NCBI RefSeq assembly: GCF_020103725.1
Contig: NZ_JAHXBG010000018.1
Span: 1-64,000, forward strand
Reading direction: 5' to 3'
DNA: 64,000 nucleotides
DNA from: Hyalangium gracile
Lineage (GTDB): Bacteria > Myxococcota > Myxococcia > Myxococcales > Myxococcaceae
The translations under genes and the position numbers were made by a program. Below are positions 274-41,006 of the stretch, piece after piece (the stretch's first letter is position 1; each line of letters starts with the position of its first letter). The notes below the pieces were generated by a model. The model was not told the origin of the DNA. It saw nothing but the letters and a program-made list of their open reading frames with translations, and ran no database searches.

Positions 274-882
274 ATGAGGGCAATGAGCGCGCTGGTGGCT
301 GCGGGGCTCATGCTCGGCGGGATGACGGCGCGGGCCGAGGCGCCGCAGGTGAAGCGCAGCACGAACGATCCGGAGCGGCTGGCTCCTTTCGGGTTGCTGC
401 TGGATGCGGGAATCCCCGACGGGCCGGGCCTGTCGGCGGCGTTCCGGCCCACGCGACGCGTGCGGCTGCACCTGGGAGCCACGCACAACGGAATTCGTCT
501 GGGAGGTCGAGCGGGCATCACCCTGCTGCCGAAGCGGGGTTGGTACACTCCCTCCTTCACCTTCGAGGTGGGGCACACCCTCACGGTGAGCTCGGACACG
601 GTGGCGCGCCGCATGGCGGACATCTCGCAGCCGCCGCTCTTCTCGATGGAGCGCGTGGGGTACTCCTACGCGAGCACGCACCTGGGCTTCGAGGTGGGCA
701 AGCCCGGCGACGTCATGTTCTTCCTGCGCGCGGGCGTGAGCTGGGTCGAGCTCCATGTGCCCAACGTGGAGGATCTCGCCGAGCCCTTCATCCGGAGCCT
801 CGGAGAGTCCGGCGCCCAGGGCGGACGCTTCATCTACATGATGCCGTCCGCCAAGTTCGGGCTGGTGCTCTACTTCGGCTGA
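274..882 (+). CDS. Putative secreted/outer-membrane protein, unknown function
   Basis: The 202-residue protein begins with a clear signal peptide (MSALVAAGLMLGG..., probable cleavage after ARA). The mature part has alternating short beta-type segments and ends in an aromatic residue plus glycine (LVLYFG), as small outer-membrane barrels often do. I chose the ATG at 274 because a G-rich Shine-Dalgarno-like stretch lies about six bases upstream; GTG 253, ATG 256 and ATG 283 are also in frame. Its 3' end overlaps the convergent hydrolase gene by 13 bp. I do not recognise a named family. Outer-membrane localisation is inferred. Confidence 0.7.
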   Translation: MRAMSALVAAGLMLGGMTARAEAPQVKRSTNDPERLAPFGLLLDAGIPDGPGLSAAFRPTRRVRLHLGATHNGIRLGGRAGITLLPKRGWYTPSFTFEVGHTLTVSSDTVARRMADISQPPLFSMERVGYSYASTHLGFEVGKPGDVMFFLRAGVSWVELHVPNVEDLAEPFIRSLGESGAQGGRFIYMMPSAKFGLVLYFG

Positions 883-1853
883 GCGGCGCCCACGGCGTCG
901 AAGAACGCCAGCATCTGCGCATCGCCCCAGAAGCGAGGGGCGTGCACCCGGCCGGAGACGAAGCCCACGTGGCCTCCGCGCTCCGTCAGGATGATGCTCA
1001 GGAGGGGGTTGTCCGCCGCCTGGGGCGGGATGACCGGCGCCACCAGCATCGGATCATCATTGGAGCTCAGCAGCAGCGTGGGCCGCCGGATCGCGTGGAG
1101 CTTCGGCCCGGAGGACGCCTCGGTGTAGTAGTGCGTGGCGTCCCGGAAGCCGTGCAGCGGCGCGGTGACGGCATCGTCGAAGGCGCGGATGGTGCGCGCG
1201 GCCTCCATGGCCTTGCCATCGAACGCCTTGGGGAAGCGCCGCAGCTTCTCGCGAGCCTTCTGCTTGAGCGAGCGCAGGAAGCGCTCACGGTAGAGCAGCT
1301 GGAAGGGCCCGGGCCCGTCGAGCTTGTAGCAGCAGGCGTCCAGGTCATACGGCGCGCTCATCACGGCCGCGGCCTGCACCGGCGCGTTCTCGCCCGTCTC
1401 CTCCAGCAGCCGGCAGAGGACGTTGCCGCCCAGCGAGAAGCCCACCGCGTACAGCGGGCCGGTGACGCGCGCGCGCACGTGCTTCGTCACCGCGAGCGCG
1501 TCGCCGAACTCTCCCGAGTGGTACGAGCGCGCCAGCCGGTTGGGCTCGCCGCTGCACGAGCGGAAGTTGAGGGCGGTGCCTCCCCAGCCTCGCTCGAAGG
1601 CGCCACGGAGGACGGCGGCGACGTAGCCCGCCTTGGAGGAGCCCTCCAGCCCATGGAGCACCACCACGTGCGGGGCGCCCGGGGCTCCATCGAAGGTGTC
1701 CAGATCGACGAAGTCGCCGTCGGACAGCTCATGGCGCTCGCTGCGCACCAGCGGGGCCCGGGTCGGACGCGCGAGCGAGGCGAAGATCGTCTGGGCGTGG
1801 GGCGAGCCCATGCCCGCCGCCGGAGCGAAGGAGTCGGTCGGTTGGAAGCGCAC
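870..1853 (-). CDS. YheT-type alpha/beta-hydrolase
   Basis: The 327-residue protein matches the UPF0017/YheT hydrolase family over its full length. The oxyanion-side motif HGLEGSS, the nucleophile elbow GFSLGGN (Ser), an acidic stretch SSNDDPM and a late GGHVGF (His) give the expected catalytic triad. The N-terminus carries the family's typical 'GSPHAQTI' stretch. Substrates for this family are poorly defined, with short-chain ester hydrolysis reported for relatives. The start is GTG; no ATG is available upstream before a stop. It lies tail-to-tail with the preceding gene, and the Cys-cluster gene lies 75 bp upstream on the same strand. Confidence 0.9.
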   Translation of the reverse strand: MRFQPTDSFAPAAGMGSPHAQTIFASLARPTRAPLVRSERHELSDGDFVDLDTFDGAPGAPHVVVLHGLEGSSKAGYVAAVLRGAFERGWGGTALNFRSCSGEPNRLARSYHSGEFGDALAVTKHVRARVTGPLYAVGFSLGGNVLCRLLEETGENAPVQAAAVMSAPYDLDACCYKLDGPGPFQLLYRERFLRSLKQKAREKLRRFPKAFDGKAMEAARTIRAFDDAVTAPLHGFRDATHYYTEASSGPKLHAIRRPTLLLSSNDDPMLVAPVIPPQAADNPLLSIILTERGGHVGFVSGRVHAPRFWGDAQMLAFFDAVGAAQPK

Positions 1854-1928
1854 GGGCCCGCGATAGCGCCCGCGAGAGGGAGAGACAAGTCCCTGGCGGG
1901 TCGGGGAAGCCCGAGCCTGCCCACGGGC

Positions 1929-2222
1929 TCACGGTTCGCCGCGGGCCCGGCGCATGGAGGCGCAGCCCTTCTGGCGCGTGGCCTCGGCCTCGGCGGTCAG
2001 CCCGAAGAGGGCCAGGTACTTCTGGACGCGCTCCTCCAGGGTGGGGGCCTCGATACGGCGGCACACCTCGTCCGGCTGGTAGTCGCGGCACACCTGCGGA
2101 CGGCGGTCATACACGGTGCACAGGTTGTCCGCGCCCAGGTGCGGACAGCGCAGCCCCAGCGGCTTGTCCAGCGCGGCGATGTCCGGCGCCACGCAGCAGG
2201 CGCCACAGCGGGTGCACTCCAT
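1929..2222 (-). CDS. YkgJ-family cysteine cluster protein
   Basis: This small protein (97 residues) starts MECTRCGACC and continues with RCPHL, C-x-VYDRRPQVCR and a final Cys. That is the YkgJ/UPF0153 pattern, thought to bind zinc or an Fe-S cluster. The start is certain because the first Cys motif is directly at the N-terminus. It is in the same orientation as the genes on both sides and may be cotranscribed with the zinc-ribbon protein 37 bp upstream. No specific biochemical role is established for the family. Confidence 0.85.
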   Translation of the reverse strand: MECTRCGACCVAPDIAALDKPLGLRCPHLGADNLCTVYDRRPQVCRDYQPDEVCRRIEAPTLEERVQKYLALFGLTAEAEATRQKGCASMRRARGEP

Positions 2223-2259
2223 TGGCCTGGGCTCCAGGAAGGCGAGGGGGCGTCCTACC

Positions 2260-3417
2260 TCAACGCGGGGCGATCTTCTGCACTTCCCCGCCGTTGGTGA
2301 CGGTGAGGGACACCTGCTGGCCTTTCTTCCAGGCGAGGTACTCCTGCTCCGTCTTGAGCTCGTGCTTCGTCTTCTTCTTTCCGCCGTCGTACTCGAGGTG
2401 GACGATGTACTCCTCCTCGCGGCGCAGGCGGTCCTCGGTCCTCACGGACAGCTCCGGCCAGCGCGGCGGCTCCCCGTCCTCGCCCGAGAGCTCCTGGTGC
2501 GTCACCTTCTTCCACTCGTACGTGTCGTAGCTGCACTTCGGCTCGTACACGGGCTCGGTCCGGTAGCGCGTCTCGTTGCGGCAGTCCTCATAGGACTCGC
2601 TGCAGTACTTCGTGACGTCCTCGCAGATCTCCTCCCGGAAGCCGTTGCCCTTGTCCCGGGTGCGGCACTTCTCCTCCGTGCCGCAGGCCACCTTGCGCGT
2701 CTTCGTCGAGCAGACCCGCTCCGTGCCGTCCGCCACCTTCCGCGTGGTGCGCTGGCGCGGCACGCAGTTGCGGATGTTCTGCACGCCCGCCACCTCGCCC
2801 TTGCCGTCGACGGGCATGCGCGGAGACTGGGCGCGCAGCTGGTCCGCCCAGCCCTCCAGCGTCACGGGCGTGAAGCGCTCCTGGGCCACGCTGCGCTTCC
2901 ACTCGGTGCCGGTGATCTGGCCCGTGGTGTCGTGAGGAATGGATGCCCAGATGCGGTAGGCCACGGTGCCGCCGCAGCAGAGGAACAGGCTGCCCAGGAG
3001 CGCCAGGCCCACCTTGGCCAGCGGGCCACGCTTCTTCGGCACCGCCTGCTGCGGCGAGGGACGCGGAGGAGGAAGGCCGGGATCCGCCTCCTCTCGGAGC
3101 GCCTTGGCGTCCCCGGTCCGCTCGGCCCGACAGTTCTTGCAGATCTTCTGGTCGCCCCGGTTCGAGGCGCCGCAGTAGGCGCAGAACCAGTCCGCGCCCG
3201 CCTTGGCCAGCTCCAGCGCCTTCTCGTCCGTCACGCCCTCGCGCAGGGATTTGCCCGTGGCCGCGTCCGTCTCGCCAAAGTCGAACTCGGACTCCTCGCC
3301 CGTGAGCTCGCGGGGGTTGCCGCACTGGGGGCACTTCTTGTGCCGGGCGAGGATGCCCTTGGTGTCGCACGAGGTGCAGTCCCACGTGCCCTCGATGATC
3401 CGGGTGCGCTTGGCCAT
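2260..3417 (-). CDS. Zinc-ribbon membrane protein with Cys-rich outer domain
   Basis: The protein (385 residues) has two N-terminal zinc ribbons: C14/C17/C29/C32, then C79/C82/C93/C96 in a RanBP2-like 'WFCAYCGASNRG...ICKNC' arrangement. A proline-rich linker and one membrane segment (about 133-155) follow. The C-terminal domain has about ten further cysteines in a basic, repeated K/T-C pattern between about 205 and 290. A good Shine-Dalgarno (GGATGGAG) precedes the ATG. The topology suggests cytoplasmic ribbons and an exported, possibly disulfide-bonded domain. I do not recognise a characterised family for the C-terminal half. Confidence 0.75.
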   Translation of the reverse strand: MAKRTRIIEGTWDCTSCDTKGILARHKKCPQCGNPRELTGEESEFDFGETDAATGKSLREGVTDEKALELAKAGADWFCAYCGASNRGDQKICKNCRAERTGDAKALREEADPGLPPPRPSPQQAVPKKRGPLAKVGLALLGSLFLCCGGTVAYRIWASIPHDTTGQITGTEWKRSVAQERFTPVTLEGWADQLRAQSPRMPVDGKGEVAGVQNIRNCVPRQRTTRKVADGTERVCSTKTRKVACGTEEKCRTRDKGNGFREEICEDVTKYCSESYEDCRNETRYRTEPVYEPKCSYDTYEWKKVTHQELSGEDGEPPRWPELSVRTEDRLRREEEYIVHLEYDGGKKKTKHELKTEQEYLAWKKGQQVSLTVTNGGEVQKIAPR

Positions 3418-8190: not shown

Positions 8191-9845
<1,655 letters not shown>

Positions 9846-9862
<17 letters not shown>

Positions 9863-10892
9863 AGGCAGGTCCTTGAGAAGCGCCCTCGCGCACGTTCGGA
9901 GTGCGCAGCGACTTGATGAACTCGACGATGGCGGCCGTCTCCGCGCCCTCCAGCTTGCCCTGGAAGGTCGGCATCACGTTCTTGTAGCCCGCGACCAGGT
10001 GCGCGCCGGGATCCATCATCGACTGGGTGATGTAGGCCTCATCCACGCGGATGGTCTGCCCGCCCTCCAGCTGCTCCATGCGGTCATACATGCCCAGGAA
10101 GGTGGGGCCGATGTGCGGCGCCCCGTCCACCGTGTGGCACTTGAAGCAGCCCTGGGTACCGGCCAGCCGCTGGCCCTGCTCGGCCATGCGCGCCACCGGC
10201 GGCACCAGCGAGGTGTCCGCCAGCGCGTCCTGACGGCTGGCCAGGCGGCCGCGCTGCTGCTCCTTGAGCCACTCCTCGAAGTCCTCCGGCGAGAGGACGA
10301 CGACCTCCGCCAGCATCTTCGAGTGGGACAGGCCGCAGTACTCCGTGCACAGCACCTGGTAGGTGCCGGGCTTGGTGGCGTTGAACCACGCCTGCGTGTA
10401 GCGGCCCGGCAGCGCGTCCATCTTGATGCGGAACGCGGGCACGTAGAAGGAGTGGAGCACGTCCCTGGAGGTGATGAGCAGGCGCACGTTGCGGTTGGCC
10501 GGCACGTGCAGCACGTTCACCCCGTTGGGGCCCTCCGGGTACGCGAACTTCCACATCCACTGCTTGCCCATCACGTACACGTCGTACGTGTCCTTGGGCG
10601 GCGAGGTGTACCAGACGAAGTCGCGGAACCCGATGGCGAACCACGCCAGGAAGAACACCAGCGGCACCGAGACGAAGAGGAACTCCGTCGGCAGGTTCGG
10701 CACCACGTACTCCGTGGCCTGGTTGGGCACGCGGCGGCGGTAGCGGAAGAACATGAAGACGGCCGCCAGGCCCACCGCGATCGACGACACCATGGTGACG
10801 CCGACGACGAAGTAGTGGAGATCGTCGACCTTCTCCGCGAACGTCGACGCGCGCTCCGGGAGGAAGAGGATATTGTCAGCGAGGTTGCTCAT
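9846..10892 (-). CDS. coxB: caa3 oxidase subunit II with fused cytochrome c
   Basis: The protein (348 residues) has two N-terminal membrane helices (about 27-50 and 70-90). A CuA cupredoxin domain follows with H147, C182, E184, C186, H190 and M193. A fused C-terminal cytochrome c domain carries C249-F-K-C252-H253 and a late Met in NVMPTF as axial ligand. This makes the enzyme a caa3 oxidase that accepts electrons directly, as expected next to alternative complex III. Its ATGA start overlaps the stop of the SCO gene. Confidence 0.97.
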
Positions 10893-11770
10893 GCCGCAGC
10901 GCCTTTCTTCAGCTCGCGCCTCCAGAAGTAGATCAGCATGGTCGAGAGCGCGGTGAACACCAGCATCGCCCCCGTCCGGATGAAGCCGAACACGTAGAAG
11001 CTGTATCGCCGCATGGCGGCGTCATACTTGAAACAGGACAGGATGACCCGGTCGAAACTGGTACCCACCCGACCGTTGCCGGCCTCCACCAGGGACAGCT
11101 TCATGTCCTTGGGGGAGAAGGTGGTGCCGTAGAGGTAGCGGGAGACGCTGCCCTCGGGGGTGATGACCTGCACCACGGCGGGGTGCGCGTACTGCTTGGT
11201 GGACTCGTCGTAGCGGTACTTGAAGCCCACCGCCTCGGTGAGCTTCTGGATGTTCTCCTCCGTCCCGGTGAGGAAGTGCCAGGGGGCCGACTCCGGCTTG
11301 CCCATGGCCTGCAGGTGGCGACGGCGCCGCTGCTCGCTCTGGGCCGGCGTGTCCTTGGGATCGATGCTGACGGTGACGGCCTCGTAGTCCTTGCCCAGCT
11401 CCAGCCCCACCTCGCGCATCGCGCTCACCTGGCCATTGATGACCAGGTTACAGAGCATGGGGCACTCGTAATACACCAGCGTCAGCAGCGTGGGCTTGTC
11501 CTTGGGGAGCACATCGGCCAGCCGCACCTCGCGGCCCGCCGAGTCCAGGAAGCGCGCCTGCAGGGGCAGGGGCTCTCCCAGGTGCTCCTCCACGTCCACT
11601 CCCTGGACCTGCGGCGGCTGCTCCGCGTTGACGATCGCCTGAGGCGTCTTGCCCCCGCCGGGCAGCGCGAACGCCGGCTGGCCGACGCCCAGCAGGAGCG
11701 CCGCCACGGCGAGCCCCACGCACCAGCTGGCGCGCGAGGTGGGCAGGGAGGGGAGGGAGGACATCGACAT
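10889..11770 (-). CDS. SCO1/SenC copper chaperone with C-terminal anchor
   Basis: The 293-residue protein has a thioredoxin-like SCO domain with the copper-binding C103-PML-C107 and H196 (YAHPAV). SCO proteins load copper into the CuA site of subunit II, fitting its place directly before coxB. A signal-like segment lies at about 15-37. A second strongly hydrophobic segment at about 258-282, followed by RRELKKG, would anchor the C-terminus in the membrane. Most SCO proteins are anchored only at the N-terminus, so this layout is uncommon. The stop overlaps the coxB start by 4 bp. Confidence 0.93.
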   Translation of the reverse strand: MSMSSLPSLPTSRASWCVGLAVAALLLGVGQPAFALPGGGKTPQAIVNAEQPPQVQGVDVEEHLGEPLPLQARFLDSAGREVRLADVLPKDKPTLLTLVYYECPMLCNLVINGQVSAMREVGLELGKDYEAVTVSIDPKDTPAQSEQRRRRHLQAMGKPESAPWHFLTGTEENIQKLTEAVGFKYRYDESTKQYAHPAVVQVITPEGSVSRYLYGTTFSPKDMKLSLVEAGNGRVGTSFDRVILSCFKYDAAMRRYSFYVFGFIRTGAMLVFTALSTMLIYFWRRELKKGAAA

Positions 11771-11788
11771 CGGAGGCAGACCTGGTTC

Positions 11789-12310
11789 CTAGCGAGGGGT
11801 GGTGGGAGGAGTGGTGGGAGCCGGAGCGGTGCCGCCCGGAGCCGGGGCCGGAGCCTTGCCGCCCGGGGCCGGAGCCGGCTCGGGGGCCGGAGTCGGAGCC
11901 GGGGGCGGCGGAGGCGGACGGGCCGCGTCGGAGATGACGCGCTCGAAGGCCTGATCGAGCGGGGTGTGGGCGGCCACGCCCGGCTGGTCGCCCCAGCCGT
12001 TCTTCAGGGACTCGCGCTGGCCGGCGATCTTCTGCTCGGCATGCAGGTCCTGCTCGAATATGCGCTGGTTGACGATGCCGATCTCGTACTGGCCGATGGC
12101 GATCGGCTTGGGCGGCGGGCCGTCCGGCTGGTACTCGCGCTCGAGGTTCACCTGGCCGCGCCACGCCACGAACGAGGCCACGGCGAAGATGAGCAGCGAC
12201 AGCACGCCCACCTTGACGACCTTGCCGAGGACCAGGTGGTCCTCTTCGGCCGCCACGCCATGCGCGCCGACGATGACGCGCGACTCCTGCTCGACCTGGG
12301 TCTTCTTCAT
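11789..12310 (-). CDS. Small membrane-anchored Pro-rich protein of the act operon
   Basis: The 173-residue protein has one membrane helix (about 34-50), then a region with 'IAIGQYEIGIVNQRIFEQDL' and a long Pro/Ala/Gly tail with two near-identical APAPGG repeats. It begins within the actF stop codon (ATGA overlap) and lies 18 bp before the SCO gene, so it is part of the respiratory operon. I do not recognise a named family. It may be an accessory or structural subunit of the complex III-oxidase assembly; this is inferred from position only. Confidence 0.75.
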   Translation of the reverse strand: MKKTQVEQESRVIVGAHGVAAEEDHLVLGKVVKVGVLSLLIFAVASFVAWRGQVNLEREYQPDGPPPKPIAIGQYEIGIVNQRIFEQDLHAEQKIAGQRESLKNGWGDQPGVAAHTPLDQAFERVISDAARPPPPPPAPTPAPEPAPAPGGKAPAPAPGGTAPAPTTPPTTPR

Positions 12311-13503
12311 GGCTGCACGTACCTCAGCGAGTCAGCGATGTACGGATCCTTCACCGGCACCGTGTAGCGGCCGCGGGCGCGGAACAGGGCGAAGCCCACC
12401 GCGATGCCGCCCACGCCCACCCAGGCGGTGATGATCGTCCACGGGAAGGTGGGCTGCGCGTCGTTGTAGGCGGGGAAGATGAGCCAGTACATGTCCACCG
12501 CGTGCACGAGGAGCAGGTACACGGCCACCACCGCCAGCTTGCGCGGCTGCAGCTTGAGGTTGCGCGACAGCAGGATGCCGAACGGAATCAGGAAGTGGAC
12601 GAAGAACAGCGCGATGGACACCGGGCGCCAGCCGCCGAAGATGCGCACGTGGTACCAGGGCGCCTCCTCCGGGAGGTTGGCGATCCACACGAGCAGGAAC
12701 TGGCTGAAGGCGATGTAGGCCCAGAAGGCCACGAAGGCCAGCATCAGCTTGCCCAGGTTATGGTAGTGCGCCGTCGTCACCAGGTTGCCGTAGAGGTCCT
12801 TGCCCGTGGCGTTCACCGTCGCGAGCGTCAGCACGCAGAAGGCCGCCAGGAAGCTGCCCGCGAAGTAATAGACCCCATAGATGGTCGACTGCCAGAGCGG
12901 CGTGAGGCTCATCATCCAGTCGAACGCAGCAAAAGTGATCGTAAGGGCAAGAAAAGGTAGCGAACCGGGCGACAGGAAGCGCTGCTTCACGGTGAGCATC
13001 AGGTCCCCGCCCTCGTCCTGGCGGGTGCTCCAGCCGTAGAGGCGGTGGCTGACGAAGGTCCACACCACGAAGTAGATGACCTGGCGGGCGTAGAAGAAGC
13101 CCACGTTGAGGTAGGCGTGCTTGTGGGACAGGTGGCCGCGCTGCACGTCGGTCAGCTGGTTGGCCAGCTCCGAGCCGGGCACCCAGGGGTAGAGCAGCTT
13201 GAGGGCGGGGATGAGCCCCAGGAAGAGCACCGCGAAGATGGGGATGGAGATGGCCATCGTCTCCATGGCCCGGCGCAGCACCGTCATCCACTTGGCCTTG
13301 GCCGTGTGGAAGACGGCCACCATGATGATGGCGGCCACGGAGATGCCCACCCAGTAGGCGTAGGCGAACAGGTAGCTGTGGGCGGCGGCGCGCGCGTCGC
13401 CGACGAAGGCTCCCACCGCGGTCAGCACGAGCCCGAGGATGCCGATGCCGAAGGCCGGCACCATCAGCCTGGGCGTCCCGGTGTAACGCTCCACGGAAGT
13501 CAT
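12307..13503 (-). CDS. actF: Alternative complex III subunit ActF (quinol:cytochrome c oxidoreductase)
   Basis: The protein (398 residues) has about ten membrane helices and resembles NrfD/ActC-like integral subunits. ActF and ActC are the two large membrane subunits of alternative complex III. I place the start at ATG 13503, giving an ATGA overlap with actE as seen repeatedly in this operon. Family-like features include 'YLFAYAYWVGIS', 'GHLSHKHAYLN' and 'FAAFDWMMSLTPLWQSTIYG'. Codons in the stretch 12925-12965 are unusually A/T-rich compared with the rest of the gene. Confidence 0.9.
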   Translation of the reverse strand: MTSVERYTGTPRLMVPAFGIGILGLVLTAVGAFVGDARAAAHSYLFAYAYWVGISVAAIIMVAVFHTAKAKWMTVLRRAMETMAISIPIFAVLFLGLIPALKLLYPWVPGSELANQLTDVQRGHLSHKHAYLNVGFFYARQVIYFVVWTFVSHRLYGWSTRQDEGGDLMLTVKQRFLSPGSLPFLALTITFAAFDWMMSLTPLWQSTIYGVYYFAGSFLAAFCVLTLATVNATGKDLYGNLVTTAHYHNLGKLMLAFVAFWAYIAFSQFLLVWIANLPEEAPWYHVRIFGGWRPVSIALFFVHFLIPFGILLSRNLKLQPRKLAVVAVYLLLVHAVDMYWLIFPAYNDAQPTFPWTIITAWVGVGGIAVGFALFRARGRYTVPVKDPYIADSLRYVQP

Positions 13504-31858: not shown

Positions 31859-33136
31859 CTACAGCTGCTCAGCCATGCTCATCAGCGGGGTGGTGTCGGC
31901 CGGAGCGAAGCCCGGGCAGATGCCGAGGCCGATCGTGCCGGTCTTGCTGAAGAGCGGGGCGTTCAGGGTGTAGCCCGACCAGTTGGCGATGGTCAGGTAC
32001 CAGGTCTTCTTGAAGAACCAGAAGATCTTCACCCGGGCGTAGAGCCGGATGTTGCCGGACATCGTGTTCAGGCTGATGTTGGAGCTGAGCTTCCAGGTCA
32101 TCGCGCTGCACAGCGGCCAGAAGAGCTCGGCGGTCGCCGGCAGGTTCACGTTGATGAGCATCAGGCTGCCCTGGACACCGAAGGCGAAGACGACGACGTC
32201 CACACTCACCGAGGCCGTCACGTTGACGTAGCCGCCCGGCGTCCCGTTGATCTTGGCCTCCGTGGGGCTGATCTTTCCGGACAGGCTCAGCTTCGCGCCG
32301 CCGCTGAGCGCGGCCCGCACCTTCATCGGGACGGGGCCCACATTGAACCGCTTGCTGACGACGAAGAAGTCACGGCTGGAGTTGACGGGGGTGATGGTGA
32401 AGCTGGCCGCCAGGCTCTTGGAGTAGATCTGCTGGCCCATGGCGTACACCCGGGCCATGCCGCTGTTGGTGCCACCCTGCTGCCCGGACACGTCGATGCG
32501 GGCGCGGACCACTTCCCGGGTATAGGAGAACGCCGTGGCGTGCACCTTGCCGTCGACGTAGGCCACCACCTTCTTGCCGATGGCGCCGGAGGCCTCCGTG
32601 CCCTGCACGAAGGTGTCGATGTAGTAGCCCGCGCCGAACATCGAGTTGCCGAAGGCGTCCTTGCGGACCCAGCGCCGGGTGGCCGTCGCCGGAGCGGACA
32701 TGGTGCTGATCAGGCCCTGCGGCTTGAGCTGGGGTGCTGGGGGCTGGCCATCCTCCTCGTAGATCTCCTCGGGAGGGGGTGCCGTCTCCCGGGATGCTTC
32801 AGGAATCGTGGGCTGCTCGATGGCGATCTCCGTCGTGCCATCGGTGTTGGTGATACGCCGGCCTCCGGTGATGCGCACCTCGTCGGCGATGATCGCCTCC
32901 TGCTCTTCCGGGGTGTAGACGCGCCTCTGGTCGTAGGGGAGCAGCGTCGACTCCCAGCTGTAGTTGTCATCCATCACATAGCCATCCGGGTAGGACACCA
33001 CCGGGAACTTGGCCTCGACCTGGTAGACGACCGGGTCGGTGTACTCCGGGATCGGGGTGGTGGCCTGCGCCGCGGCCAGGGTGGGGACGATGAACGCCAG
33101 GACAGCGCTCAGGGTACGGGGAATGATTCGGGACAT
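31859..33136 (-). CDS. Secreted protein, unknown function, paired with HEAT protein
   Basis: The protein (425 residues) has a signal peptide ending AAAQ. A Pro/Glu-rich stretch (about 95-140) follows, then a large beta-rich domain with many aromatic residues (for example 'SKRFNVGPVPMKVRAALSGGAKLSL' and a tail with WFFKKTWYLTIANWSGYTLNAP). A good Shine-Dalgarno (GAGAGGCAG) precedes the ATG. It lies 71 bp after the HEAT-repeat gene on the same strand and is probably its partner. I do not recognise a named family. Surface or matrix export is inferred from the signal peptide. Confidence 0.7.
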   Translation of the reverse strand: MSRIIPRTLSAVLAFIVPTLAAAQATTPIPEYTDPVVYQVEAKFPVVSYPDGYVMDDNYSWESTLLPYDQRRVYTPEEQEAIIADEVRITGGRRITNTDGTTEIAIEQPTIPEASRETAPPPEEIYEEDGQPPAPQLKPQGLISTMSAPATATRRWVRKDAFGNSMFGAGYYIDTFVQGTEASGAIGKKVVAYVDGKVHATAFSYTREVVRARIDVSGQQGGTNSGMARVYAMGQQIYSKSLAASFTITPVNSSRDFFVVSKRFNVGPVPMKVRAALSGGAKLSLSGKISPTEAKINGTPGGYVNVTASVSVDVVVFAFGVQGSLMLINVNLPATAELFWPLCSAMTWKLSSNISLNTMSGNIRLYARVKIFWFFKKTWYLTIANWSGYTLNAPLFSKTGTIGLGICPGFAPADTTPLMSMAEQL

Positions 33137-33207
33137 GGACTGCCTCTCTGTGTGTGGGTTGGGTGTGGGTGTTGAAGTGACTGCGGGGACAGGGGGACTG
33201 CCGCGGC

Positions 33208-35157
33208 TCAGTGAGTCCGCGAGCTGAGGAAGGTGAGGGCGGTGCGGCGCAGGCCCGGGCTCGGGTCGTTCTGGCTGCTCCACTCGAGGAGGGAGCGCGC
33301 CTCGGGGACGGCGCGGAACTGATCACCAGCCAGCGTGATGATCTCCCGGCGGACCAGGTCGGAGCTGTCCATGCGCAGGGCCTGGGAGAGCACCGGCAGC
33401 AGCGGGGCCAGGGGACGGAAGCTGCTGGCGAAGACGGCCGTCTGGCGCACCTCGGCGGTGGGGTCCTGCAGGAGGACGCTCGCGAGCAGCTGGTCCGCGC
33501 TGGGGGCGGGCATGTTGCGCAGGGCCTCGACGGCGGCGGTGCGCACCTCGGGGGACGTGGAGGACAGGGCCGACTGCAGGGTGGGCAGCGCGCTGGGGTG
33601 GCGCGTGTTGCCCAGGGCGCGCAGCATCAGGGCCTGCTGCTCGGGGCTGCTGGAGGAGCGGTAGGCGCTGTCCAGCTCGTGCACGAGCGACTCGGCATCG
33701 CGCGGCCGGCTGTCGTTCATCATCATGGAGGCGCTGCCCAGGCCCAGCGTGGCGGTGTCGGCCAGCTCGGGGTTGGCGTCGTGCGACAGCTCGCGCAGCG
33801 CGGCCACGCCTTCGTCGGTGGGGGTGCTGGCCATGCCCAGCGCGGAGGTGGCGTCCATGCGCACCGGTCCGGCGAGCGACTCGTCACGGACGATGGAGGA
33901 GAGCGCCTGGACGGCCTCCGGGGTGCTGGCGGAGGAGAGCGCGCCGAGCAGCGGGCTGGCGGCCAGCGGGTCCATTCCGGCGCGCAGGGTGTCGTGCACG
34001 AGGAGGGCCTGGCCGGGCTCCAGGAGGAAGAGCGCGCGCAGCTGCTGCAGGGCCTGGCTGCGCGCGGTCTCGCTCTGCTTCTCGTCGGCGGGCAGGCTGC
34101 GCAGCTCCTTCACCAGCGCGTCGAAGTTCTTGCCCGCGAGAATCTGGCGCAGCTCCACCTTGGGGTCCTGGCCCTCGCCCTGGTAGCTCGCCAGCGGCAG
34201 GGTGGTGAGCTCGCTGTAGCGATCCAGGAAGGAGCCGATCAGGGTGCGGTCGCGGCTGCGCTCCTTCAGCGTCAGGCTCACCTGCAGCGAGCTGACGACG
34301 GTGAACATGGACGGCCCGGAGTCCACCTCGAGGTGCTCGCGGCCCTGGAGGGACTCGGCCCAGAAGTCCGTGCCCAGCTCGAAGGAGGCGAGGGCGCTGA
34401 TGCTCACGCGCGGGCCGGCGTTCAGCGGCTGGAGCCCGTCGGGGGTGGCCAGGTGCGAGTAGGCCAGCTTGGTCTTCTCGAAGTGCGCGGGGCCCTTGCG
34501 GGTGTACTGGGCGGAGTAGAGCCCCGTGGTGTCCTGCTCCTCGGTGCGCCAGGTCTCCTGGGGAGCGCCGGACAGCACGTGCTGGGTGGCGGCCACGGTG
34601 GCGCGCAGCAGCCCCTGCACGAGGATGTCGGTGCCCTGCTCGAAGTGGACGAACTGCACGGCACCGGAGCGGTGCAGGGTGATGAAGAAGGGCTGGGCCA
34701 GGCCGGCCTCGAAGGTGCGACGCACCTCGGGCGCGAGCCGGCTCTCCCCGTTCAGGTTCACCTCGGCGGTGGAGGGCACCAATTGGATGCGGGCGTGGAC
34801 CTGCTCTCCGTCCACGGAGACGACTCCCACGCTCCACTCGCCTCGGAGGTGGAAGCGCAGGCCCGGGGGCGTCTCGGCACCGGGCTGGGAGGAGGTGAAG
34901 TTCACCTCCTGGCTGGAGCTCAGCGTGTAGCGGTACTTCATGCCGGGCACCCACTCCCGAGCGCTCTCCATGGCCTTCCGCGCGGAAGGAGCGGGCAGCG
35001 CGGAGGCCGGCTCGGCGGGAGCGGTGGAGCGGGGCTTCGAGGTGGCCTGAGGCGCCTCGGAAGCGGGCAGGTCGTTCGACTTCAGGGCCACCCCTCCCGC
35101 GGTGATTCCCAGGAGGAGCAGCGTGAGGAAGAGGAGGATGCGGTGCTTTCCAGGCAT
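33208..35157 (-). CDS. HEAT-repeat secreted protein with vitellogenin-like N-terminus
   Basis: The protein (649 residues) has a signal/anchor (residues 6-25), a linker rich in Pro/Ala/Ser, and then a beta-rich domain (about 68-320). That domain carries features like the N-terminal domain of vitellogenin-type lipid-transfer proteins: GMKYRYTL, 'FFITLHRSGAVQFVHFEQG', ETWRTEEQDTTGLYSAQY and FEKTKL. A helical C-terminal half (about 340-649) has HEAT-type repeats such as 'VRMDATSALGMAS' and 'EVRTAAVEALRNM'. This order, beta barrel then alpha solenoid, is that of large lipid-transfer proteins, but homology is my inference. Lipid binding is not shown. Confidence 0.65.
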   Translation of the reverse strand: MPGKHRILLFLTLLLLGITAGGVALKSNDLPASEAPQATSKPRSTAPAEPASALPAPSARKAMESAREWVPGMKYRYTLSSSQEVNFTSSQPGAETPPGLRFHLRGEWSVGVVSVDGEQVHARIQLVPSTAEVNLNGESRLAPEVRRTFEAGLAQPFFITLHRSGAVQFVHFEQGTDILVQGLLRATVAATQHVLSGAPQETWRTEEQDTTGLYSAQYTRKGPAHFEKTKLAYSHLATPDGLQPLNAGPRVSISALASFELGTDFWAESLQGREHLEVDSGPSMFTVVSSLQVSLTLKERSRDRTLIGSFLDRYSELTTLPLASYQGEGQDPKVELRQILAGKNFDALVKELRSLPADEKQSETARSQALQQLRALFLLEPGQALLVHDTLRAGMDPLAASPLLGALSSASTPEAVQALSSIVRDESLAGPVRMDATSALGMASTPTDEGVAALRELSHDANPELADTATLGLGSASMMMNDSRPRDAESLVHELDSAYRSSSSPEQQALMLRALGNTRHPSALPTLQSALSSTSPEVRTAAVEALRNMPAPSADQLLASVLLQDPTAEVRQTAVFASSFRPLAPLLPVLSQALRMDSSDLVRREIITLAGDQFRAVPEARSLLEWSSQNDPSPGLRRTALTFLSSRTH

Positions 35158-35427: not shown

Positions 35428-36645
35428 TCAGTAGACCTTGAGCAGGCGCGCCCGGTACTCGAAGCGGGGGCGCAGCGCGGCGTTGGAGGGATCCATGAGG
35501 AGCCCCAACGGGAGCGTGAGCGTGCCGGTGGCGAGGCTGGCGAGCGACTCCCTCAGCGCCTGGGGCGTGTAGAGCCAGCCCTCCACCATCCACTGGGTCC
35601 TGAGGACGTCGCGTCCCCGGAGCGCTTCTTCCGGAGGAGGCGTCAGCGAGGTGAGCGCCCCTGGGACGACCTTCAGCACGAAGGCATCGAAGAGCGGGTT
35701 GCCAGAAGGGTCGGTGAGCTTGGCGTCCACGAGCTCCCCGCTGCGGTCCAGGCGCAGCTCGAGGGTGACGGTGAGCAGGGGGCTGCGGTTGTTCAGCGCC
35801 TCCAGCGTCTCGCGCGCCTGGATCTGCATCCGCAGCCGGTCCGCCGCGGGCTCGTGCCTGAAGATCTCCGCGACCTTCTCGCTGTGAAGGGGATGCTGTG
35901 GGGGCGGGGCTCCTCCCGGGTTGCCCGTCTTGCCGTACTCCTCGGCGGCTTGCGTGTAGCTCTTCATGACGCCCGCCATGGGGTTCCAGATCCCGAGATC
36001 GCGAGCCTCGCCGCCCTCGGCGCTACCGAGTGCCCCATCGAGCGACTCGCGGACCCCTTCGAAGTAGGGGTGCTGTCCGATGCCTCGGGCGCGAGCCCCC
36101 GCCGCTCCATCGTCCATCCAGTCCTGGACGCGCGCGGTGAGCCGCTCCGAGGTCTCGGCCGAGGACTCGGGCTCGAGGGCCGGATCACCCGGGCGCAAGG
36201 TACGGCCCCGGGACTCCGGCTCCGCGGTGGGAGCGCCGGCACCGGGAACCCCTCCTGGCCACGAAGGAACGAGCACCAGCTTGCGCGGCGCATCCTCTCC
36301 TCCCGGCTCCGCCATGGGCCGATCCTCCTGGCGCTCGGCGGGCTTGGCGGGGGGCGGGCTCTCAGCCACGGGCGCGGCCGGCTGCTGTCGGCGGGCAGGC
36401 CGGGCGGCCGAGCGCTTCGCTGGCGCTGGGCTGGCGGCAGGCTCCTTCGGGAGAGGCGGGGCCGCGGGCGGCACGTCGATGAACTCCAGCTCCACGGAGT
36501 TCGGCTCCGCGCTCACGGGCGCCGGGCTCGGGACGGATGAAGCCCGGGGAGCCGCCAGCCACAGCCACGCGGCGACAGCCAGGTGCAGGAGCACCGAGGC
36601 AAGGATCGCGGGGGCAAGCCTGTGGCGAGAGGGAGCGGGCTTCAT
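35428..36645 (-). CDS. TonB-like energy transducer protein
   Basis: The 405-residue protein has one N-terminal membrane helix (about 12-30). A long Pro/Ala/Arg/Glu-rich linker follows, with a conserved-looking 'VELEFIDVPPAAPP' just after the helix. A C-terminal domain about 120 residues long contains 'VTLELRLDRSGELVDAKLTDPSGN' and is TonB-C-like in its strand-helix order. The linker is typical of TonB proteins spanning the periplasm. I set the start at ATG 36645; the open frame upstream lies antisense to the bestrophin gene. No partner receptor or ExbBD genes are nearby. Confidence 0.75.
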   Translation of the reverse strand: MKPAPSRHRLAPAILASVLLHLAVAAWLWLAAPRASSVPSPAPVSAEPNSVELEFIDVPPAAPPLPKEPAASPAPAKRSAARPARRQQPAAPVAESPPPAKPAERQEDRPMAEPGGEDAPRKLVLVPSWPGGVPGAGAPTAEPESRGRTLRPGDPALEPESSAETSERLTARVQDWMDDGAAGARARGIGQHPYFEGVRESLDGALGSAEGGEARDLGIWNPMAGVMKSYTQAAEEYGKTGNPGGAPPPQHPLHSEKVAEIFRHEPAADRLRMQIQARETLEALNNRSPLLTVTLELRLDRSGELVDAKLTDPSGNPLFDAFVLKVVPGALTSLTPPPEEALRGRDVLRTQWMVEGWLYTPQALRESLASLATGTLTLPLGLLMDPSNAALRPRFEYRARLLKVY

Positions 36646-36747
36646 GGCCACCGTTGATGATCGGTCCTGGCAGGCTGGAGGACAAGGCTCGAAGTGACGG
36701 TTCGACCGTTGCCTTCCAATCCGGGGTAGGCGAGAAGGTGCGGCGCG

Positions 36748-37662
36748 ATGATCCAATACGATCCCCACCGATGGCTGCACCACTTCTTCGACCTGAAGGG
36801 GTCGATGGTCCGCGAGATCGTCGGACGCATGCTCGTCTCCACGGTGTGGGCCGTGGGAGTGGTGGCGTTCCACCGCTACGTCCGACCGGTGGACATCCCC
36901 AGCACGGTGCATGGGCTGGTGGGGGTGGCGCTCGGCCTGCTCCTGGTGTTCCGGACCAACTCCTCCTATGACCGCTTCTGGGAAGGCCGGAAGCTGTGGG
37001 GAGGCATCGTCAACGAGACGCGCAACCTGGCGCGGGCCGCGGGCGTCTTCCTCCGAGAGCGCGACCCGGAGCTCTACCGGACGCTGGTGCGCTGGACCGC
37101 CGTGTTCCCCAGCTCCGCGGCCTCGGGCCTGAGAGGGGTGAGGAACCTCGGGCCCATCGCCGCGCAGCTTCCGCCGGGGGACGTCCAGCAGGTCGCAGCC
37201 GCCCAGCACGCGACGCTCGCGGTGGCATGGCGCATGAGCGAAGCGCTGGCGGAGGGGCGCCGCCGCGGTTACTACAACGAGTACACGCAGATGGCGCTGG
37301 ACCAGAACGTCCAGCTGCTCATCGACTACGTCGGTGGCTGCGAGCGCATCCACAGGACGCCCATGCCCTTCGCGTACATGGTGCACCTGCGCCGGGCGCT
37401 CGTCCTCTACTGCTACTCGTTGCCGTTCGCTCTGGTGGACAGCTTCGGATGGCTGGCGGTGGTGGCCACCTTCCTCGTCTCGTACGTCTTCCTCGGCATC
37501 GAGGAGATCGGCGTGGAGATCGAGGATCCCTTCGGCGTGGATGAGAACGATCTGCCGCTCGAGCAGATCTGCGGCGTCATCCACGCCAACCTCCTGGCGC
37601 TGCTGCCTCCCGAGACGTCCCAGTCCCCGGGCGTACCGGAGAAGGTCGCGCAGTCCCAGTAG
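36748..37662 (+). CDS. Bestrophin-family anion channel protein
   Basis: The protein (304 residues) matches the bacterial bestrophin/YneE family. It has N-terminal helices up to GVALGLLLVFRTNSSYDRFWEGRKLWGGIVNETRNL, the family's most conserved stretch. A cytosolic helical region follows, then 'RTPMPFAYMVHLRR' and 'EEIGVEIEDPFGVDENDLPLEQIC' at the C-terminus, the family's calcium-clasp-like signature. Bestrophins form pentameric channels in the inner membrane. The gene is divergent from the TonB-like gene with about 100 bp between the starts. Confidence 0.93.
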   Translation: MIQYDPHRWLHHFFDLKGSMVREIVGRMLVSTVWAVGVVAFHRYVRPVDIPSTVHGLVGVALGLLLVFRTNSSYDRFWEGRKLWGGIVNETRNLARAAGVFLRERDPELYRTLVRWTAVFPSSAASGLRGVRNLGPIAAQLPPGDVQQVAAAQHATLAVAWRMSEALAEGRRRGYYNEYTQMALDQNVQLLIDYVGGCERIHRTPMPFAYMVHLRRALVLYCYSLPFALVDSFGWLAVVATFLVSYVFLGIEEIGVEIEDPFGVDENDLPLEQICGVIHANLLALLPPETSQSPGVPEKVAQSQ

Positions 37663-39182: not shown

Positions 39183-41006
39183 TCAGGGCGGCCGTGCGGC
39201 CACGGGGGCGTTCCGTGGCTGCTCGGTCGCCTCCGGCATCTCGGCCTTGCCCGTCTTGAGCAGCGCGTACCCGCCACCGATGATCCCGGTCCCGATCGCG
39301 AGCGCCAGCAGGTACAGCGCCACGTGGCTGACCGCGTGGGGGATGAGCAGCACGAACAGCCCACCATGCGGGGCCATCAGCTGCACGCCGAAGAACATCG
39401 ACAGTGCTCCCGTGATCGCGCCACCCACCATGCAGGTGGGAATCACGCGGAACGGGTCCTTGGCCATGAAGGGGATGGCGCCTTCGGAGATGAAGCACAG
39501 CCCCAGCACCAGCGACGCCTTGCCGGCCTCGCGCTCCGGCTCGGAGAACTTGGCGCGGGCCAGGAGGCTCGCGACTCCCAGCCCCAGGGGCGGCACCATG
39601 CCCGCGGCCATGATCGCGGCCATCGGCAATTGCGCGCCTGCTCCTCCCTCCGCCAGCAGGCCGACGCCGAAGGTGTAGGCCGCCTTGTTGACCGGTCCGC
39701 CCAGGTCGAAGCACATCATGGCGCCGAGCAGCGCTCCGAGCATGATCGCGTTGCCCGAGCCCATGTTCTTCAGGAACGTCGTCAGCGACGACATGATCGC
39801 GGCGACCGGCGTGCCGATGACGTAGATCATCACCAGCCCGGTGAGCAGGCTCGCTACCAGGGGGATGATGAGGATCGGCTTGAGCGACTCCACGCTGACC
39901 GGGAGCTTGAGGGAGCGGCTCAGCAACCGCGCCGAGTACCCGGCGATGAAGCCCGCGGCGATGCCTCCGAGGAATCCCGCTCCGAGCTCGCTCGCCAGAT
40001 AGCCGCCGATCATTCCAGGAGTGATGCCGGGCCGGTCTGCGATGGAGTACGCGATGTAGCCCGCCAGCAGCGGCACCATCAGCTTGAAGGCCGTGCCGCC
40101 GCCCACCCGCATGAGCGCCGCGGCCAGCGAGCCCTCCTCCTTGAAGGCCTCGATGCCGAACACGAACGACAGGGCGATCAGCAGGCCTCCCGCGACGACC
40201 ATGGGCAGCATGAACGACACGCCGGTCAGCAGGTGCTTGTAGGGCCCGCGCCGGGCGCCCGGTGCTCCTCCTCCACCGCTGCCCGCGGGCGTCTCCGCGC
40301 TCCCTGTCCCGCCCCCTTGGACCTGTGCCTTCTCCAGCGCATCCTGGATCGTCTGGGTCGACTTCTTGAGGGCTGTGCCAGTCGAGGTCCGCCACACGCG
40401 CTTGCCCGCGAACCGCGAGGTGTCGACCTCGATGTCGCAGGCGAGGATGACGGCGTCGGCGTTCCGGATCTCCTCCGCGGTCAGCTTGTTCTGGGCGCCC
40501 ACGGAGCCCTGGGTCTCGACGCGAATCGGATAGCCGAGCCCGCTCGCGGCCTGGGTGAGCGCCTCGGCCGCCATGAAGGTGTGGGCAACGCCCGTCGGGC
40601 AGGCGGTGATGGCCACGAGCTTCTTCTGTCCCTGGGCGGATGCCGGCGCCGGTGCCTTGGATGTGGCCTCCAGCCCTCCACGGCCAGCGGCCTGGGGCAG
40701 CGTCGCGGCCTGGCTCTCGGCCCGCGCCAGGAACGCATCCGGCTCCGGCAGCGCCTGCGCGATGGTCGCCTGATAGACGCGCTTGCCGACGAACCGCTCG
40801 AGCGGCACCGGCGCGCTCGTCGCGACGACCACCAGGTCGGCGGCATCGATCGTGGCCTTGTCGAGCGGGACGAGCGGCTCGAGCTGGCTGTGCATCTCCA
40901 CGAAGGGCTTCCAGCCGCGTCGGGTCGCGGCGCGCTCGAGGCCCCGAGCGGCGAGGAAGGTCGTGGCCACGCCGCTGGGACAGGCCGTGACGATGATGAC
41001 GTTCAT
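39183..41006 (-). CDS. fruA: Fructose PTS enzyme IIB'BC
   Basis: The protein (607 residues) has two tandem EIIB-Fru domains: the first with C9 in TACPSGVATTF, the second with C136 in TACPTGVAHTF. The membrane EIIC domain (about 250-590) has eight or so helices with GYIAYSIADRPG and a 'PIPFMAKDP'-like FISEGAIPFMAKDP. This is a fructose permease that phosphorylates fructose to fructose-1-phosphate on import. The first B domain lacks the usual His after the Cys loop (VATTF versus VAHTF), so it may be degenerate. The ATGA start overlaps the fruK stop. Confidence 0.93.
   Translation of the reverse strand: MNVIIVTACPSGVATTFLAARGLERAATRRGWKPFVEMHSQLEPLVPLDKATIDAADLVVVATSAPVPLERFVGKRVYQATIAQALPEPDAFLARAESQAATLPQAAGRGGLEATSKAPAPASAQGQKKLVAITACPTGVAHTFMAAEALTQAASGLGYPIRVETQGSVGAQNKLTAEEIRNADAVILACDIEVDTSRFAGKRVWRTSTGTALKKSTQTIQDALEKAQVQGGGTGSAETPAGSGGGGAPGARRGPYKHLLTGVSFMLPMVVAGGLLIALSFVFGIEAFKEEGSLAAALMRVGGGTAFKLMVPLLAGYIAYSIADRPGITPGMIGGYLASELGAGFLGGIAAGFIAGYSARLLSRSLKLPVSVESLKPILIIPLVASLLTGLVMIYVIGTPVAAIMSSLTTFLKNMGSGNAIMLGALLGAMMCFDLGGPVNKAAYTFGVGLLAEGGAGAQLPMAAIMAAGMVPPLGLGVASLLARAKFSEPEREAGKASLVLGLCFISEGAIPFMAKDPFRVIPTCMVGGAITGALSMFFGVQLMAPHGGLFVLLIPHAVSHVALYLLALAIGTGIIGGGYALLKTGKAEMPEATEQPRNAPVAARPP

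Follow-up and report, generated by a model that had tools for sequence, protein, structure and literature searches.

The window analysed here, a 64,000-nucleotide stretch of Hyalangium gracile DNA (contig NZ_JAHXBG010000018.1), carries on its minus strand two neighbouring genes, which we named H and P. H (33208..35157, ATG start) encodes a putative membrane-anchored protein of 649 amino acids, with an LLT module made of a barrel and a HEAT solenoid. P (31859..33136, ATG at 33136) encodes a predicted exported, beta-rich partner of 425 amino acids with a probable signal peptide, and is separated from the stop codon of H by 71 bp (33137..33207, same strand). Both the open reading frame of H and a partner gene 71 bp downstream had been proposed in a preliminary description of this DNA, and both are present. 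Upstream of H lies a long frame (35428-37584, minus strand) whose C-terminal part matches TonB_2 (E 2.4e-5); it is probably outside the system, because the closest loci (L033 and L034) have a different neighbour at this place. A bestrophin-type channel gene (36748-37662, plus strand) and a gene for a fructose-type PTS EIIBC protein (39183-41006, minus strand) are ordinary neighbours.

Large lipid-transfer proteins (LLTPs) have been described as animal proteins that carry the LLT module, also called Vitellogenin_N, and the word 'bacteria' does not occur in the main text of that article (PMC1783640). In H, a heuristic hydropathy scan places a hydrophobic segment, a probable signal anchor, at about residues 1-26 (35080..35157), followed by a linker of low confidence (residues 27-65; pLDDT is below 50 for residues 1-65). 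The predicted N-terminal beta barrel (34195..34941, residues 73-321, with helices at 143-154 and 178-191) was delimited from the AlphaFold2 model and the alignment with the apoB barrel 9bd8, and the HEAT alpha solenoid (33223..34158, residues 334-645) from Pfam, the model and structure alignment; all these features lie on the minus strand. The chain ends at residue 649, directly after the solenoid, and the lipid-binding sheets of LLTPs are absent from H.

By the same heuristic, 88 of 90 H genes encode a hydrophobic segment at the N terminus, and one shows a lipobox pattern. Many H proteins have tryptophans at the end of this segment (judged by eye), as is typical of an uncleaved anchor, and H is probably anchored in the inner membrane, facing the periplasm. 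An AxA pattern follows the segment in 33 of the 88 proteins (heuristic scan), so that some of them may be cleaved and released. Gene starts were taken from a simple caller or from the longest frames, which makes lengths and signal sequences approximate. H had initially been called secreted; this word suits P, whose N terminus in the window resembles a cleavable signal peptide (by eye), better than it suits H with its anchor-like N terminus, for which cleavage is nevertheless possible.

We modelled H with AlphaFold2 from nine sequences (the window protein and those of eight related loci), obtaining a mean pLDDT of 83.2 and a pTM of 0.52. The model consists of strands at residues 73-321, a weak linker at 327-330 and helices at 334-645, and the prediction therefore bears out the beta-rich N-terminal domain that had been claimed from the letters. 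When the model was compared by Foldseek with 350,542 PDB chains, the best seven matches were all LLTPs: two MTP chains (E 2.4e-18 and 5.1e-18), lipovitellin (1.1e-15), bee vitellogenin (1.4e-13), a further MTP chain (2.5e-13) and apoB (2.9e-12 and 2.7e-9). Designed HEAT proteins start at E 4.8e-7, behind all seven. At the level of a predicted structure, this ranking supports the LLTP domain order and vitellogenin-like barrel of the preliminary description. Whole-chain TM-scores for the seven LLTPs are low (0.27-0.40 on the query) and the rmsd is large (15.5-19.5), which may reflect a different hinge between barrel and solenoid.

The comparison with lipovitellin that had been proposed was made with VIA-align 2: 1lsh aligned with residues 68-633 of the model (Z 20.0, 531 residues, rmsd 15.8). 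The apoB barrel alone (9bd8) aligned with residues 64-329 (Z 19.6, 245 residues, rmsd 5.0), and the predicted fold thus has the barrel on which the preliminary description had made its reading depend. Single alignments ran across both barrel and solenoid for 1lsh, 6i7s, 9ens and 9bd1. Among the matches listed, many solenoids reach Z values of 15-21 over the HEAT part, and three designed HEAT proteins stand above lipovitellin by Z, on the solenoid part only; consequently, only the barrel and joint coverage of both domains are telling. In the best 50 rows, those starting in the barrel are LLTPs, with the exception of a proteasome chain (9cgc, from residue 114, 304 residues).

Pfam recognizes in H the HEAT repeats that had been claimed (HEAT_2 7.7e-25, HEAT 8.2e-11), as well as Vitellogenin_N, at 66.4 bits for a cut-off of 24. 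The latter match, the other result on which the vitellogenin reading had been made to depend, covers residues 403-602 (profile 361-581), that is, the solenoid only, and by itself could be a generic HEAT match. NCBIfam yielded for H only HEAT-region families, far below their cut-offs. A defence reading was discarded, since PADLOC gave for H only HEAT-region matches and none for P or for the Herpetosiphon protein described below. The motif region singled out earlier is indeed conserved: all 38 homologues have G212 and Y233, while W203, E207 and Y218 are kept at 90% or more. A profile of these 38 homologues matches lipovitellin (E 1.9e-11, query 155-601) and MTP (E 1.3e-9, query 148-548), each in one collinear stretch over both domains, at ranks behind 19 HEAT-type chains, mostly designed. 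Searching the PDB by phmmer with the single H sequence returned only HEAT-type or unrelated chains. Neither a barrel-only profile (A3; best E 0.88, DipZ chains) nor a profile of the barrel and early solenoid (A6; HEAT-type chains only, mostly designed) retrieved an LLTP from the PDB, so that barrel homology in the Myxococcota rests on structure. Vitellogenin_N matches at E ≤0.01 in 35 of the 38 homologues; for ten H proteins picked for spread, four lie above the cut-off, three below it and three have no match. Vitellogenin_N was recognized in 52 genomes among the 195 of the phylum, and all of these but G061 carry the bacterial barrel too (51 genomes); the 14 control genomes gave no match.

Further evidence comes from Haur_5045, a protein of 862 amino acids encoded on plasmid pHAU01 of Herpetosiphon aurantiacus and annotated as 'Lipid transport protein domain'. 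It matches the H profile over residues 30-574 (136.8 bits) and the P profile over residues 634-790 (43.6 bits), the latter corresponding to part of the P core; as controls for the P profile, 2000 shuffles of its tail reached at most 3.6 bits and the best non-family ORF 5.7. No separate P gene was found in the 14.4-kb stretch around it. Haur_5045 is hence an H module followed by part of a P core, which places barrel, solenoid and beta domain in one bacterial chain in the same order as in LLTPs. Its barrel scores 42 bits with the bacterial barrel profile (best of 2000 shuffles, 8.1) and is also where its best Vitellogenin_N stretch falls (residues 134-284, profile 88-243), which helps to close the gap in barrel homology.

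These data also bear on whether H could be a chance combination, in which an unrelated barrel joined to ordinary HEAT repeats merely looks like an LLTP. The predominance of HEAT repeats in the sequence match, the failure of barrel-only profiles to retrieve LLTPs by sequence and the low whole-chain TM-scores would be expected from such a coincidence. However, seven LLTP chains come ahead of every other HEAT protein by Foldseek E-value, the apoB barrel aligns by itself over 245 residues, and the Herpetosiphon barrel matches both Vitellogenin_N and the bacterial barrel profile; we therefore disfavour a coincidence and consider it very improbable. Homology of H to the LLT module is well supported. 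H is a homologue of this module (Vitellogenin_N) in a new arrangement and, as it stops after the solenoid without lipid sheets, not a complete LLTP.

The linkage of H and P was studied in 91 loci including the window stretch, using iterated profiles for P-type ORFs; four duplicate loci (L073, L074, L080, L134) were dropped from the linkage count, giving 90 H genes. P lies upstream on the same strand in 63 cases (three of which are second H copies 3.5 kb away), downstream in 17 and divergently in 5, is fused to H in 1 and was not found in the stretch in 4. Altogether, 83 of the 90 H genes adjoin P or are fused to it, and since this adjacency has been kept in four arrangements, selection on the pair is more plausible than mere co-inheritance. 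Of the other seven, six are in dnaA loci (L058, L060, L061, L063, L064, L128), and the seventh (L079) lies at the edge of a contig. The dnaA-locus copies have no P of their own, and a full H-P pair lies across dnaA in L058, L060 and L063; the identity of dnaA was established by Pfam for the L058 gene (Bac_DnaA, 4.3e-63) and by phmmer for its relatives. Two tandem P-type ORFs precede a single H in L110:1-3855, the sole such case among the 91 loci. Some P members were recruited only by profile iteration, and the three lowest (L065, L066, L069) score 10.5-12.8 bits with the first profile, against 5.7 for the best non-family ORF.

Co-occurrence follows the same pattern. In the 195 genomes, which include related ones and are hence not independent, H is present in 77, P in 76 and both in 74. 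The H barrel occurs without a detected P in G054, G135 and G142, and the P core without a detected H in G026 (C188:42053-42892) and G184 (C1:5246-5728). In 20 genomes, chosen as already carrying H, 43 of 44 P places are within 3.5 kb of an H, for a chance expectation of about 0.1 (a rough estimate), and 43 of 51 H places are near a P. This count omits one of 45 P rows, which is another piece of an open frame already counted (G191). As for the 44th P, its profile match lies 4.8 kb from H, yet the open frames adjoin (L112). H is genetically tied to one exported beta-rich client, P.

Some loci hold further genes. A secreted protein with a possible C-terminal Hint-like domain was seen near H-P in 19 of 84 loci, for instance at L040:7023-8123, where the match to Pfam PT-HINT is weak (E 0.024, below cut-off); it was not found in the locus of the window and is hence not part of the core pair. 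L040 is the second H-P pair of the window genome, with neighbours at 637-3336 and 9090-13119: an MBOAT acyltransferase and an AlgX-like protein before the pair, and a subtilase with a PPC domain and an RCC1-repeat protein after it. A third conserved neighbour suggested by single-linkage clustering was rejected, as several secreted enzyme families had been merged together.

H and P also co-diverge. For 80 pairs, the two trees correlate with a Spearman coefficient of 0.75 (the highest of 2000 permutations was 0.22), nearest neighbours agree in 52 of the 80 pairs, and P matches its own H in 22 of 22 comparisons between paralogues of one genome. Partial, P-less or duplicate loci were left out of the tree set, and the 22 comparisons are loci whose genome was labelled by hand. 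Co-divergence is in part due to the shared descent of linked genes.

One could take these results to mean that H stays permanently in complex with P, the two making up a split vitellogenin or lipoprotein that would store lipid or shuttle it through the periplasm, or be released laden with lipid. Co-divergence and the single-chain version of Herpetosiphon, with its LLTP domain order, are consistent with this. So is the rather hydrophobic, weakly charged P core (median GRAVY 0.03 and 16% KRDE, versus -0.16 and 20% for the 279 genes called in the loci), although 22% of called genes have an even smaller share of charged residues. Moreover, H looks anchored whereas P is exported, some H copies are alone and P matches no lipid-binding family. 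A permanent complex is in our opinion possible but rather improbable.

The conserved core of P (31928..32890, minus strand, about 320 amino acids) is common to the partners, and the Herpetosiphon protein carries a portion of it fused to the H module. It is C-terminal, in proteins that range from 384 to more than 1,500 amino acids as read in open frames. The hydropathy heuristic detected a clear hydrophobic stretch close to the beginning of 60 of 84 P ORFs, accompanied by an AxA pattern in 40 and a lipobox pattern in 7; among the other ORFs, many frames are extended too far or truncated. Pfam assigns P to no family, and 30 partners gave no match to LLTP sheets or VWD. The P profile found no convincing relative in the PDB (best E 0.62), hhalign no similarity between the P core and the H barrel (probability 0.2%), and an AlphaFold model from eight sequences reached a pLDDT of 40. 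When the N termini of 13 long partners were searched with Pfam, we obtained a C-type lectin domain in one, laminin-G-like domains in three (one of them with an additional SUEL lectin match below cut-off), somatomedin-B in one and nothing in eight. Laminin-G-like domains precede the P core in the long partners L107, L111 and L113, which belong to distant families and whose frames, at least 1,449 to 1,586 amino acids, all start at a stretch or contig edge and are thus lower bounds. The variable N-terminal domains, lectins included, suggest binding or adhesion rather than lipid storage.

This is also what would be expected if H were a dedicated chaperone, or an export or display factor, that serves P without lipid. 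H would keep hold of the beta core of P on its way to the outer membrane or the surface, and the variable N-terminal domains would act there. The tight linkage in varied gene orders agrees with such a role, as do the signal peptide or lipobox patterns of P and its build, a conserved C-terminal core in a variable partner that sometimes bears C-type lectin, laminin-G-like or somatomedin-B domains. The parts of LLTPs that are kept in H are known mainly for protein contacts and, as H has them without the lipid cavity, a lipid-free chaperone fits about as well as a lipid-loading protein. On the other hand, the fold belongs to a superfamily whose known members handle lipid, and the Herpetosiphon fusion keeps H permanently attached to its client, unlike a chaperone that releases it. 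We hold a lipid-free chaperone to be nearly as likely as the lipid-handling system that we prefer.

H and P together reproduce the LLTP order of barrel, solenoid and beta domain. Our preferred interpretation, to which we give a probability of roughly 0.45, is that the locus is a bacterial two-piece LLTP architecture in which H is the LLT module and handles P in the way that MTP handles apoB. The pairing of H and P is well supported, like the homology of H; an MTP-like lipid-loading role for H is an inference. From its probable position at the inner membrane, H would receive P as it leaves the Sec machinery, and the barrel and solenoid would make contact with P by cradling its beta core. Lipid of the membrane would then be bound and passed to P, or P would be folded on H, much as MTP loads and chaperones apoB, and mature P would depart to the outer membrane or to the outside.

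The distribution of H is broad within the phylum. The 77 genomes mentioned above, in which the H barrel profile has members, represent 23 of 90 genera and eleven family codes, and a contig scan, which reaches close relatives only, found H on nine named contigs of Archangium, Myxococcus, Corallococcus, Citreicoccus and Hyalangium, genera that we take to be Myxococcaceae. Identity of the homologues to the H of the window drops to about 21%. Comparison of the Herpetosiphon protein with the 195 genomes gave matches in 42, and the places compared by eye were H genes. In a plasmid collection the only member was that of Herpetosiphon, and viral contigs gave no match to the Herpetosiphon protein. The spread of H across the phylum, in a survey of one phylum and plasmids, suggests that the family is old in bacteria and was not recently acquired from an animal.

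A wider proposal, which we put forward more tentatively than the reading of the locus itself, is that the module of animal yolk and blood lipoproteins arose long ago in bacteria. It would have served in an MTP-apoB-like system in which a membrane-anchored H loads lipid onto an exported beta-sheet client, P; the two would be separate in Myxococcota but joined in one chain in Chloroflexota, and the LLTPs of animals would descend from this system or share ancestry with it. We know of no explanation for the origin of animal LLTPs, and a bacterial barrel-solenoid family with a tied partner and a natural fusion in LLTP order is a concrete candidate. The Herpetosiphon annotation indicates that the domain match itself was already known to databases. 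Open-access literature contained no work on bacterial LLTPs among the matches listed, which is weak evidence, as most subscription journals lie outside it; as far as that literature was searched, the split H-P pair, the P family and the fusion are undescribed. With only two genes, H-P furthermore offers a minimal system in which the working of the module can be tested, and P is a widespread exported myxobacterial family without a Pfam model.

Comparison with known systems places H closest to the large subunit of MTP (6i7s, 8eoj), the best Foldseek match (E 2.4e-18), in which a barrel is likewise followed by a helical solenoid; the relation between MTP and apoB may be the analogue of that between H and its client. 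MTP pairs with PDI and carries lipid-binding beta sheets in the same chain, whereas H, which probably has a membrane anchor, stops after the solenoid. Lipovitellin and vitellogenin (1lsh, 9ens) share the barrel and solenoid over residues 68-633 of the model, but these animal yolk proteins are much longer and contain lipid-cavity sheets and, in most of them, a VWD domain. The N-terminal region of ApoB-100 (9bd1, 9bd8) resembles H in its barrel (245 residues aligned), while apoB as a whole has thousands of residues and serves as a lipoprotein scaffold. H also has its HEAT solenoid in common with PBS-lyase-type HEAT proteins and designed alphaReps, which, among the VIA-align matches listed, align to the solenoid part only. 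Finally, Haur_5045 is homologous to both H and P, and differs from the pair of the window in being one chain of 862 amino acids.
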